From contig NZ_UFQQ01000014.1 in the NCBI RefSeq assembly GCF_900218015.1, forward strand, positions 1-64,000: a stretch of 64,000 nt of DNA, in the 5' to 3' direction. This document shows positions 19,092-25,696 of the stretch, in pieces. The position numbers and the translations under genes are program-made. This DNA is from Rhodopseudomonas pentothenatexigens (GTDB taxonomy: Bacteria; Pseudomonadota; Alphaproteobacteria; Rhizobiales; Xanthobacteraceae). The stretch's first letter is position 1. Each line of letters opens with the position of its first letter. Below the pieces are notes generated by a model that worked only from the letters and a program-made list of their open reading frames with translations, searched no databases and was not told the origin of the DNA.

Positions 19092-19706
19092 TCAGTTTGG
19101 CGCGGCCAGCGCGGTGGCCCGGCCGGCTGTGCCGAACGGCCTGGGCTTGTCCTTGCCGCAGGCAAAGCCGCGCGCCAGCTCGTCGGCGGCCTGCCGCGCC
19201 AGCTCGTTGGCGTTGCGGTTGGCGGCGACGTCGACATAGGCGACATGGCACACCGGGCCCGGCGGCAGCCGCGTCACCACCAGCATCTGCTTGGTGTTGG
19301 GCCGGCCGGCCTTGCCGACATCGTCGTTGTCGGCAAGGTGCCAGCGCTGGATGATCGCGAACGGCTTGCCGGTTCCGTCGAGCCGCCATTCGACCGTATC
19401 GGTGGTGGAGTTGAACGGGCCGAACGAGGCGCTGGCCGCCGGTTGGTCGTTGGCATCCTTTCGGTTGCGGCCGACGGTGACGGTCTGGCGCAGATCGATC
19501 TCCGCCACCACCACCACCAGCCCGTCCTGGCCCGGGCAGAGCCACTCGCCGGCGTCTTCGTCCTTCCCGGCTGGCCGCACGATGCGGCAGGATTTCGGCG
19601 CGGTCGAGCTGTAGACGCTGGTCGCGCCGTCGGCCCGGGCCGGCGTATCGAGTGCCGGCAGGGCGGCGAGGAGGAGCGGCAGGGCGAGAGCAGAGGGCAG
19701 TCGCAT
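19092..19706 (-). CDS. Hypothetical periplasmic protein (204 aa)
   Basis: The product has a signal peptide (MRLPSALALPLLLAALPAL, cleavage near PARADG). The mature domain contains four Cys: SCRIVRP, WLCPGQDG, VCHVAYVDV and ACGKDKP. WLCPGQDGLVVVVAEIDLRQ resembles the single-domain periplasmic proteins of unknown function found in Rhizobiales. The gagg seven bases before this Met favours it over a Met six codons upstream. I first considered an IalB-type invasion protein, but the Trp/Cys spacing is not diagnostic. Role unknown. Confidence 0.7.
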   Translation of the reverse strand: MRLPSALALPLLLAALPALDTPARADGATSVYSSTAPKSCRIVRPAGKDEDAGEWLCPGQDGLVVVVAEIDLRQTVTVGRNRKDANDQPAASASFGPFNSTTDTVEWRLDGTGKPFAIIQRWHLADNDDVGKAGRPNTKQMLVVTRLPPGPVCHVAYVDVAANRNANELARQAADELARGFACGKDKPRPFGTAGRATALAAPN

Positions 19707-19858
19707 CGGCAAGCCTCGCATCACATATCTCGTCGGTTCGACGCCGCTCGGCTGGGGAAGGTTCGAGCCCGAGTCCGGGAAAGCACTGCCATTCGTCGCG
19801 GAATCGCTCTAGAACGACGCCTTCGTGTGTCCTTTAGCCGCGTTCGAAACGAAGAACC

Positions 19859-20608
19859 ATGCCCCTGTTGTCGAAAGACCATTACCGTGTCGGCCGCTCC
19901 AAGACCGGGCTCGGACTGTTCGCCGTCAAGCCGATCAAGAAGGGCGCCAAGATCATCCGCTACGTCGGACCGCTGCTCGATTCGCGCAACAAGAAGCACG
20001 AGGGCATCGAGAACAAATATCTGTTCGAGCTGAACAATCGCTGGACCATCGACGGTTCGATCCGCAAGAACGTCGCCCGCTACATCAATCACGCCTGCAA
20101 GCCGAACGCGGAGTCCGACGTCAATCCGCGCAAGAAGCGGGTGATCATCCGCGCCGTCAAGAACATCGAGCCGGGCGAAGAGATCAACTACGACTACGGC
20201 ACCGACTACTTCAAAGCCTATCTGAAGCCGATCGGCTGCAAATGCGCGTCCTGCGAAAAGAAGCGCAAGAAGAAGGCCGCCGAAGCCAGGGCCGAAAAGG
20301 CCAAGCTGAAGCTGAAGGCCGAGCGCAAGGCGCAAGCCGAAGCCGAGAAGGCCGCCCGCAAGGCCGCGAAGGCAACCGGCAAGGCGAAGCCGGAAAAGCC
20401 GTCGAAGCCGGAGAAGGTCGCCAAATCGAAGGCGCCGAAAGCGGTGAAGGCTAAGACGAAGGTGAAGTCGAAGGGCACCAGCAAGGCAGCGAAGACCAAG
20501 GTGGTGACCGCAAAAGCCGGCAAGACCAAAGCGGCCAAGTCGGCAAAGGCCACGTCGTCGCGCAAGACGTCTGCGAGCCAATCCAACAGCAAGTCCAAGG
20601 CCGCCTGA
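19859..20608 (+). CDS. SET-domain lysine methyltransferase with histone H1-like tail
   Basis: A 249-residue protein. Residues 5-125 form a SET domain: GRSKTGLGLFAVKPIKKGAK (S-adenosylmethionine binding), ARYINHACKPNAESDV (the NHxCxPN motif) and EEINYDYGTDYF. A CKCASCEKK motif near residue 127 resembles the post-SET zinc element. Residues about 132-249 are Lys/Ala-rich (AKATGKAKPEKPSKPEKVAK type), like histone H1 and bacterial H1-like nucleoid proteins. Methylation of lysines is known for the SET family; the tail suggests DNA association, possibly with its own tail as substrate. This fusion is the inference. Single gene. Confidence 0.88.
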   Translation: MPLLSKDHYRVGRSKTGLGLFAVKPIKKGAKIIRYVGPLLDSRNKKHEGIENKYLFELNNRWTIDGSIRKNVARYINHACKPNAESDVNPRKKRVIIRAVKNIEPGEEINYDYGTDYFKAYLKPIGCKCASCEKKRKKKAAEARAEKAKLKLKAERKAQAEAEKAARKAAKATGKAKPEKPSKPEKVAKSKAPKAVKAKTKVKSKGTSKAAKTKVVTAKAGKTKAAKSAKATSSRKTSASQSNSKSKAA

Positions 20609-23996: not shown

Positions 23997-24229
23997 AGCT
24001 GTCGGTCCTGCGCTGTGGGGCGCGCCGATCGCTCGAGAGCGGCGCGCGGATCCTCAGCCTAACCGCGCACCCTCAACATCGCCTTGGCGTCCGAGGCGCA
24101 ATCTGCCGATAGTGTTAACCGCAGCTTTCCCGGCGTGCGGCGCGGGTGTCGATTTGCCACGTCGCGGCGCTGAACCCGAATGCCCGCGCGGGCGACCAAA
24201 AGCCGATATCGGCTGGACAAGGAGGCGCC

Positions 24230-25696
24230 ATGCGACGCGCGATGCTGACAACCGCGGCGCTGGCCGCGACGGTGCTGTTTGGAGCCGCTGCGGTCGCGGC
24301 GGAAACCCGGGTCGCGCTGGTGATAGGACAGTCGGCCTATCGGGCGGTGCCGCCGCTGCCCAATCCGGTGAACGATGCCAAGGCGATCGGAACCCTGCTG
24401 GGCGATGCCGGCTTCGAGGTGATCGAAGCCACCGATCTCGGCCAGAACGAGCTGCGTGCCAAGCTCGGTGATTTCGCCGCGGCGGTCGCATCCAAGGGGC
24501 CCGACACCGTGGCGCTGATGTTCTACGCCGGCCACGGCATCCAGGTCGACGGCGAGAACTATCTGATCCCGGTCGACGTCGATCCCAAGCGTGAGGCCGA
24601 TATTCCGCTGCAGGCAGTGCGGCTCAACGACGTGCTCAACACGCTGAGCTCGGTGCCGAGCAAGACCCGGATCATCATGCTCGATGCCTGCCGCAACAAT
24701 CCGTTCCCGAGCATCAACAAGACCACCGGCCAGGGGCTGGCACTGGTCGATACCAAGTCCGGCGCGCCGGGCACTCTGCTGTCGTATTCGACGTCGCCGG
24801 GCGCCGAGGCCGAGGACGGCAATGGCACCAACAGTCCGTACACCACCGCGTTGTTGAAGGCCGGGCGCGAGAATGGACTGAAGATCGAGGATACCCTCAA
24901 GCGGGTGCGGCTCGCGGTCAATCAGGCGACCGAGGGCCGCCAGACGCCGTGGGAGAGCTCCTCATTGGTCGACGACTTCCAGTTCTTCACCGTGACCGCC
25001 GCGGCGCCCAGCGACAGTGAGGCGCCGAAGCCGCGCACGGTCGAGGAATGGCGCGGCTTTCTGAAGGGCAAGCCGGTCGATCAGGCCAACGCGCTGATCG
25101 TCTCCGATGGCTCCGCCGACGCTTACGAGGCGTTCGTGTCGCTGTACGCCGAGCCGCCGTTCGCGCCGGATGCCAAACGCTGGCTCGACCGCCATCGCCG
25201 GATGCAGGCCTGGAACCGGGCGGTGCTCGTCAACACCGGCTCGGCCTACACCGCGTTCCTGGCCGAGTATCCCGCCAGCGATCTGACCGCGACCGCACGC
25301 AAGCTCGCCGAACGGCTGCGCAACCGGCCGGACACCGCGGTCGCCGTGCCGACGGCCGCACTCGCCACCCCGGTGGCCGCCGCGGCGGCGCTGACCTGCC
25401 CGTGCGGACCGACACCGCCGGCGCTGCAGAAGGTCGAACCGAAGAAGACCGACGTGAAAAAGACCAAGAGCCGGGCCGAACGCGACGACCCGCCCAAGCG
25501 CGGCGGCAAGAAGGCGTCGCGCAGCCGGGTCTATGTCGAGGAAGAGGACGACGACGTCGTGGAGGTTCGCCGGCCGCCGATCTACGCGGTGCCGCCGGGG
25601 CCGGTGATCCAGTTCGGCGGCGGCTTCCGCGGCGGCTATGGCGGTGGCCCGAGCCGCGGCGGCGGCAGTTATGGTCCGAGCCGCGGCCGTTACTGA
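24230..25696 (+). CDS. Secreted caspase-like (peptidase C14) protein
   Basis: A 488-residue protein with a signal peptide (MLTTAALAATVLFGAAAVAA). The p20-type caspase domain follows, with ETRVALVIGQSAYRAVPPLP at its start. The catalytic dyad is visible: His102 in MFYAGHGIQVDGENYLIP and Cys154 in IIMLDACRNNPFP. After about residue 265 comes a helical region with repeated short motifs, then Pro/Lys-rich and acidic stretches (YVEEEDDDVVEV), and a Gly/Arg/Ser-rich tail. The start has aaggaggc directly upstream. Bacterial orthocaspases of this kind are known in alphaproteobacteria, usually with basic (Arg/Lys) specificity, but their roles are mostly unknown. Single gene. Confidence 0.88.
   Translation: MRRAMLTTAALAATVLFGAAAVAAETRVALVIGQSAYRAVPPLPNPVNDAKAIGTLLGDAGFEVIEATDLGQNELRAKLGDFAAAVASKGPDTVALMFYAGHGIQVDGENYLIPVDVDPKREADIPLQAVRLNDVLNTLSSVPSKTRIIMLDACRNNPFPSINKTTGQGLALVDTKSGAPGTLLSYSTSPGAEAEDGNGTNSPYTTALLKAGRENGLKIEDTLKRVRLAVNQATEGRQTPWESSSLVDDFQFFTVTAAAPSDSEAPKPRTVEEWRGFLKGKPVDQANALIVSDGSADAYEAFVSLYAEPPFAPDAKRWLDRHRRMQAWNRAVLVNTGSAYTAFLAEYPASDLTATARKLAERLRNRPDTAVAVPTAALATPVAAAAALTCPCGPTPPALQKVEPKKTDVKKTKSRAERDDPPKRGGKKASRSRVYVEEEDDDVVEVRRPPIYAVPPGPVIQFGGGFRGGYGGGPSRGGGSYGPSRGRY

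Follow-up and report, generated by a model that had tools for sequence, protein, structure and literature searches.

A SET-domain protein with a C-terminal cationic arm in Rhodopseudomonas and related genera, a probable lysine methyltransferase that may act on basic proteins of its own cell

One gene in the stretch of Rhodopseudomonas pentothenatexigens DNA analyzed here (64,000 nucleotides of contig NZ_UFQQ01000014.1; the window) joins a SET domain to a long Lys/Ala-rich C-terminal end, which raises the question of what such an end does on a putative lysine methyltransferase and which proteins the enzyme might modify. The preliminary description of the locus had proposed that the enzyme may methylate its own tail or other nucleoid proteins while bound to DNA.

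Sequence Features Place the Window Protein in the SET Family

The open reading frame runs complete from its ATG to its stop codon (Table 1). A Pfam search placed PF00856 at residues 17-114 with an E-value of 2.9e-24 and a score of 85.9 bits against a curated cut-off of 22.4, and the window protein was the only SET-domain match in its own 5.38-Mb genome (E 0.001). Conservation was read from an alignment of 40 sequences that included the window protein itself, five divergent sequences, and short-tailed ones. Residues G17, G19, N77, H78, C80, P82, N83, Y113, C127, C129, and C132 were invariant in 40/40 sequences, and Y111 was at least 90% conserved. These data bear out the earlier proposals of a SET domain with intact SAM and NHxCxPN motifs, the latter reading NHACKPN here, and of a post-SET-like CKCASC element, whose three cysteines are spaced CxCx2C in the window protein. 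We take G17, G19, N77, H78, C80, P82, N83, and Y113 to have catalytic or SAM-site roles, and the SET enzyme looks competent because these motif residues are invariant in the aligned sequences. The F/Y-switch position of the SET domain presumably corresponds to Y111, and, if this position is right, the presence of a tyrosine suggests mainly mono-methylation.

The best structure match by sequence was the KMT2-type entry 4z4p (E 3.7e-18), and a fold search was led by MLL domains (MLL1 6u9m, E 1.3e-9); among solved structures, KMT2D, KMT2C, and other MLL-type SET domains lie closest to the window protein. None of the three Pfam matches of the window protein obtained up to E 1 was to a linker-histone family (the H1 globular winged helix). 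By the sequence features tested, the window protein is a SET family member and is not a linker histone. Its closest named homologues among the matches listed, those of Rhodopseudomonas palustris strain XCP and Rhodopseudomonas sp. BR0M22, are 89-90% identical, which puts the window in the R. palustris group, and the frame is intact in six genomes of this group.

TABLE 1. Features of the SET gene, its surroundings, and related loci (coordinates without a locus handle are those of the window)
Feature	Location	Strand	Evidence
Gene for SET-domain protein, probable lysine methyltransferase, with C-terminal cationic arm, 249 aa	19859..20608	+	ORF list, Pfam, own-genome search
SET domain, residues 17-114 (G17/G19; N77 H78 C80 P82 N83; Y111-D-Y113)	19907..20200	+	PF00856
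Post-SET-like CKCASC (C127, C129, C132); with C80 a likely zinc site (zinc putative)	20237..20254	+	Alignment, KMT2 post-SET
Predicted long charged helix, residues 130-173	20246..20377	+	AlphaFold, conserved basic columns
Disordered K/A/S/T/P-rich distal tail, residues 174-249	20378..20605	+	pLDDT, dN/dS
Divergent neighbor, 210-aa protein, secretion signal by eye only	19092..19724	-	Pfam search, neighborhood comparison
Stand-alone H1-like protein, 99 aa, beside photolyase-like ORF (by eye)	L157:1447-1746, G000:C31	+	
Stand-alone H1-like protein, 45 aa, if read from internal ATG of 120-aa ORF	L158:1588-1725, G000:C31	-	
Adenylate kinase with Lys/Ala-rich tail; SecY-Adk-S13-S11 order by eye	L156:1498-2568, G000:C36	-	

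The Arm Combines a Predicted Helix and a Disordered Cationic End

Past the last cysteine, the protein continues for 117 residues with lysine and alanine fractions of 0.32 and 0.26, respectively. In the AlphaFold model of the window protein (40 sequences; mean pLDDT 70.3, pTM 0.51), a single helix is predicted for residues 130-173; averaged over 10 residues, pLDDT is 83-90 across residues 131-170 and 55 for residues 171-180, and it lies below 50 across residues 175-241. The model of a Bradyrhizobium homologue (locus L030; 30 sequences, mean pLDDT 79.2, pTM 0.57) has a predicted helix of 60 residues at positions 131-190 (pLDDT means 88-98), with low confidence beyond. The first ~41 residues of the window tail, predicted as helix, are rich in Lys, Arg, Glu, and Ala, and K135, R136, and R144 are at least 90% conserved among the 40 rows. 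The helix core is of the type KKRKKKRAEARAEK, and a strict pattern of this type matched 81/103 and 19/38 sequences, many of those missed showing, by eye, closely similar basic arms. Past residue 144, no column of the 40-row alignment is invariant or at least 90% conserved.

The distal part has lysine and alanine fractions of 0.31 and 0.25 in six R. palustris-group proteins. Lysine accounts for 0.30-0.31 of the distal residues in Rhodopseudomonas versus 0.18 in 73 mainly Bradyrhizobium and Afipia sequences, 56/73 of which contain at least one LNG-type unit and 28/73 at least three. The net charge of the distal part was positive in all three groups compared, with group means of 0.24-0.30 per residue and a lowest value of 0.07. 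It thus appears that the distal tail keeps its charge better than its sequence. When the tail alone was used to search the own genome, only the window protein itself was found at E 0.01. The preliminary description had read the tail as about 115 residues of H1-like sequence; a Lys/Ala-rich extension of this size with an H1-like distal part is indeed present, but its first ~41 residues are a predicted helix. Because this helix comes first and distal lysine is lower in Bradyrhizobium and Afipia, the term "H1-like" fits the distal half only, and best in Rhodopseudomonas. As a separate observation, Bradyrhizobium homologues (L030:4400-4762, L083, and L097) carry repeated LNGK-type units in their distal tails, in a number that differs by species.

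Long Tails Are Clustered among the SET Homologues

The SET-part query matched 205/296 genomes of the Xanthobacteraceae family, in 30/47 genera, the gene being missing from 91/296, and it matched 25/297 genomes at the order level; the full-length query matched 21/41 genomes, the window's own among them (E 0.001). A tail of 76-177 residues was found in all 16 Rhodopseudomonas genomes searched. Long-tailed homologues, defined by a cut-off of 45 residues that was our own choice, are shared by Rhodopseudomonas with Bradyrhizobium, Afipia, and sister genera; in one set of them, the tails were 53-177 residues long with one exception at 45.

The first searches gave 96 distinct proteins that carry CxCxxC (L024, which does not have it, was dropped); in this set, which is biased towards tails, 4/96 (L019, L021, L022, and L023) had tails shorter than 45 residues. 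The 80 named loci are the best 80 of 148, and tail counts among them lean high because the peptide patterns used in the search contained tail pieces. A second set of 50 loci was reduced to 38 by dropping 12 remote SET proteins without the motif, and 23/38 had tails of at least 45 residues; the window and several genomes that had entered the earlier counts are among these 38. The proportion was 13/20 when one locus per genus was hand-picked, among the matches listed, for 20 genera of the family. By eye, the short tails are mostly basic, and they are near-absent in L022 and L023 (2 residues).

In a tree of 115 SET parts, built from few columns and with several long branches, tails of at least 45 residues were clustered, with 5 changes, and 0/500 shuffles gave a value as low. 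Bootstraps of the same tree gave a single change in 0% of 200 replicates, and the starred branches force only 1. We infer that a short basic end was lengthened in the Rhodopseudomonas-Bradyrhizobium-Afipia group. The lysine-rich SET extension, initially noted on this one protein, is not confined to it and occurs in many species. As to the conservation of the tail across homologues, on which the preliminary description had made its proposal depend, the proximal helix is recognizable in the long-tailed group, whereas the distal part keeps its charge more than its sequence and the remoter homologues are short-tailed.

The Tail Is Coding and Constrained

GC3 was 0.88 for residues 1-126, 0.85 for residues 127-173, and 0.86 for residues 174-249, and the SET ORF was alone among the window frames of both strands (stop to stop, at least 60 residues) in having at least 12 lysines within some stretch of 60 residues. 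Because GC3 is even across the three parts and no other frame of the window is Lys-rich in this sense, the tail frame is not a chance product. In six genomes of the R. palustris group, dN/dS was 0.083 (bootstrap 0.036-0.164) for residues 1-126, 0.118 (0.034-0.267) for residues 127-173, and 0.324 (0.190-0.520) for residues 174-249. The distal lysines of the window protein were retained in 105/120 comparisons within this group, the changes being 9 to Thr, 3 to Ala, 1 to Arg, 1 to Glu, and 1 gap. Therefore, dN/dS, which stays below 1 in each of the three parts, and the retention of the distal lysines indicated that the tail is coding and constrained. An antisense ORF of 286 aa that overlaps the SET gene (19721-20581, minus strand) was considered spurious, given the purifying selection on the sense frame.

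The wide variation of the distal tail in sequence and length (53-177 residues, one at 45) would agree with a near-neutral low-complexity extension without a function of its own. We consider this explanation improbable, since the distal dN/dS value, the replacement of Lys by Glu in a single comparison out of 120, and the positive mean net charge in the three groups all argue against it.

The Gene Neighborhood Fits a Role inside the Cell

The 210-aa protein encoded by the divergent neighbor gave no Pfam match at E 0.001. Among the best 80 of 148 loci, a homologue of this gene lies directly upstream in 52/80, and at least one of four neighbors is present in 79/80. Genes close by include those for an IspA-like protein, an XRE-type regulator, a DsbA-like protein, and a GNAT-type protein, and none of the neighbors of the SET gene names a substrate. 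Elsewhere in the window, an ORF at 24146-25696 (plus strand) appears by eye to encode a caspase-like protein (peptidase C14) with a Gly/Arg/Tyr-rich end.

The relatedness of the window protein to KMT2-type histone methyltransferases, and the fact that several bacterial SET proteins are described as host-directed effectors in the excerpts of PMC3980110 and PMC10117894, could point to a secreted effector that modifies the histones of a eukaryotic host, the KKRKKK stretch of the arm acting as a nuclear signal. However, a model of the T3SS export gate (HrcV), which covers one component, gave as its sole own-genome match, under the cut-off, the flagellar protein FlhA (903 bits versus an FlhA cut-off of 772), and the 46 plasmid records that gave a match were all below 60% identity. 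These two results, the first for a single secretion component, and the shared chromosomal neighborhood make an exported effector very improbable. The presence of at least one neighbor in 79/80 loci and FlhA as the only gate match fit a role inside the cell.

Candidate Substrates and Other Lys/Ala-rich Tails in the Same Genome

The two stand-alone H1-like proteins (Table 1) are candidate substrates, and neither matched Pfam (E 0.1) or NCBIfam (E 0.001). The 99-aa protein had matches in 18/41 genomes, own included (E 0.01), with E-values that are soft because of its low complexity. These were 16/16 Rhodopseudomonas genomes, G020, and G029, the latter being discounted as a weak match (25% identical, with a stop inside); the SET-bearing genomes G017, G018, G023, and G025 gave no match in this search, which is weak on low-complexity sequence. 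PF07432, the Hc1 family, had no match in the own genome at E 1.

The adenylate kinase of the same genome, of 356 aa, also carries a tail, of 164 residues with lysine and alanine fractions of 0.29 and 0.34. In a survey of 30 adenylate kinase loci, a Lys/Ala tail of 142-239 residues was present in 15/16 Rhodopseudomonas genomes, the frame of G007 ending after 11; elsewhere, the tails were of 111 residues in G020 and 164 in G022, two of 73 and 91 residues contained less lysine, and the remaining ten did not exceed 22. G022, whose genome is 74% complete, has the kinase tail without a SET match. Since adenylate kinase is also tailed, Lys/Ala tails appear to be a wider habit here, and since its tail is longer than that of the SET protein, a tail alone is no mark of a chromatin enzyme. 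A rather unlikely alternative is that, across the Rhodopseudomonas-Bradyrhizobium group, the SET arm acts as a general cationic tether or as a solubility tail and that the substrate is a non-nucleoid protein, e.g. a ribosomal or translation protein. In agreement with this, the kinase tails are found in 15/16 Rhodopseudomonas genomes, G020, and G022, and the proximal arm is a predicted helix and not an H1-like stretch. Nevertheless, the SET arm is long in Bradyrhizobium and Afipia too, and it is thus not merely the habit of one genus.

Automethylation is known for some eukaryotic SET enzymes, and the many lysines on the same chain raise the alternative that the main substrate is the arm itself, methylation altering its charge or binding. 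A stretch of the arm was identical at 10/16 positions to a histone H3 peptide, a score reached by 9/20000 shuffles. However, this stretch was chosen post hoc, and 14 other homologues scored 5-8/16 (five other R. palustris-group proteins were left out of the scoring), and a histone H3 mimic in the arm was rejected. Together with the lack of any invariant or at least 90% conserved column past residue 144 (40 rows, short-tailed sequences included), these data make the arm a distinctly unlikely main substrate. The idea of a chromatin-type system in one polypeptide, advanced in the preliminary description, is not supported by these observations, nor by the longer Lys/Ala tail that the same genome puts on its adenylate kinase.

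A Model for the SET Protein and Its Arm

The best explanation, to which we give a probability of roughly 45%, is that of a chromosomal SET lysine methyltransferase that is held near nucleic acid by its cationic arm and methylates basic proteins of its own cell. The helix would space the cationic end away from the catalytic domain, and this end would bind polyanions without sequence specificity, i.e. the nucleoid DNA and perhaps RNA or polyphosphate, and would retain the enzyme among the lysine-rich basic proteins of the cell, whose lysines would become mainly mono-methylated. Lysines of the arm may also be methylated, more likely as a side reaction or a tuning step.

In support of a methyltransferase placed by its arm, we counted the SET match, the closeness to KMT2/MLL by sequence and by fold, the invariant motifs, the tail in 16/16 Rhodopseudomonas genomes, the positive distal charge in three groups, dN/dS below 1, and the precedents of cpnSET with Hc1 and of Go1-SET with MC1-alpha that are described below. 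Against it, we counted the reports that NUE left Hc1 unmethylated and that Go1-SET acted on neither MC1-beta nor the histone-like protein, as well as the adenylate kinase tail, the poor conservation of the distal sequence, the gene missing from 91/296 family genomes, the four SET-bearing genomes without a match to the 99-aa protein, and the lack of an Hc1-family match. An endogenous histone-like methylation, in which the SET enzyme, brought to the nucleoid by its arm, would methylate Lys/Ala-rich proteins as a class and set the strength of their DNA binding, we regard as unlikely; in Rhodopseudomonas, Bradyrhizobium, and related genera, this class would comprise the stand-alone H1-like proteins, the adenylate kinase tail, and the SET arm itself.

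Comparison with Known Systems

The window protein shares with KMT2/MLL and SET1 (COMPASS) the NHxCxPN motif and a post-SET Cys cluster. The best aligned KMT2 chain has the spacing CxCx4C versus CxCx2C in the bacterial protein, which, unlike those enzymes, begins at the SET domain and continues with a helix and a cationic tail.

According to the excerpts of PMC3980110 and PMC10117894, cpnSET of Chlamydia pneumoniae binds Hc1 and Hc2 and methylates the H1-like Hc1; NUE, another chlamydial SET protein, is reported in PMC3980110 not to methylate Hc1. The window protein may be likened in logic to cpnSET, a bacterial SET enzyme paired with an H1-like protein. However, the H1-like proteins of the chlamydial system are encoded by separate genes, whereas here a lysine-rich arm is part of the enzyme and the genome has no Hc1-family match. 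The logic also seems comparable to that of Go1-SET from Methanosarcina mazei, a prokaryotic SET enzyme that, in the excerpts of PMC3980110, methylates the endogenous DNA-binding protein MC1-alpha and not MC1-beta or the histone-like protein. Go1-SET is archaeal, and those excerpts mention no lysine-rich arm for it.

With regard to the arm, AlgP and PhaF carry a disordered Lys/Ala/Pro tail of H1-like composition in the excerpts of PMC9239181, where the description of AlgP includes no SET domain; their tails are of the KPAA type, whereas the window tail begins with a helix and does not consist of KPAA repeats. The long adenylate kinase (NCBIfam NF010381) of the same genome resembles the window protein in its long C-terminal tail rich in Lys and Ala, but it is a different enzyme, and its tail is longer and, by eye, does not contain the helix motif seen proximally in the SET arm.

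The titles and abstract openings listed from the open-licence literature yielded no account of a SET domain fused to a cationic arm, and the fusion appears, from its sequence, to be a conserved, testable variant of SET lysine methyltransferases. The post-translational modulation by bacteria of their own chromatin proteins is "still under discussion" in the excerpts of PMC10117894, and one gene that encodes a SET enzyme together with its own cationic arm, as found in Rhodopseudomonas palustris and Bradyrhizobium, makes this question directly testable.
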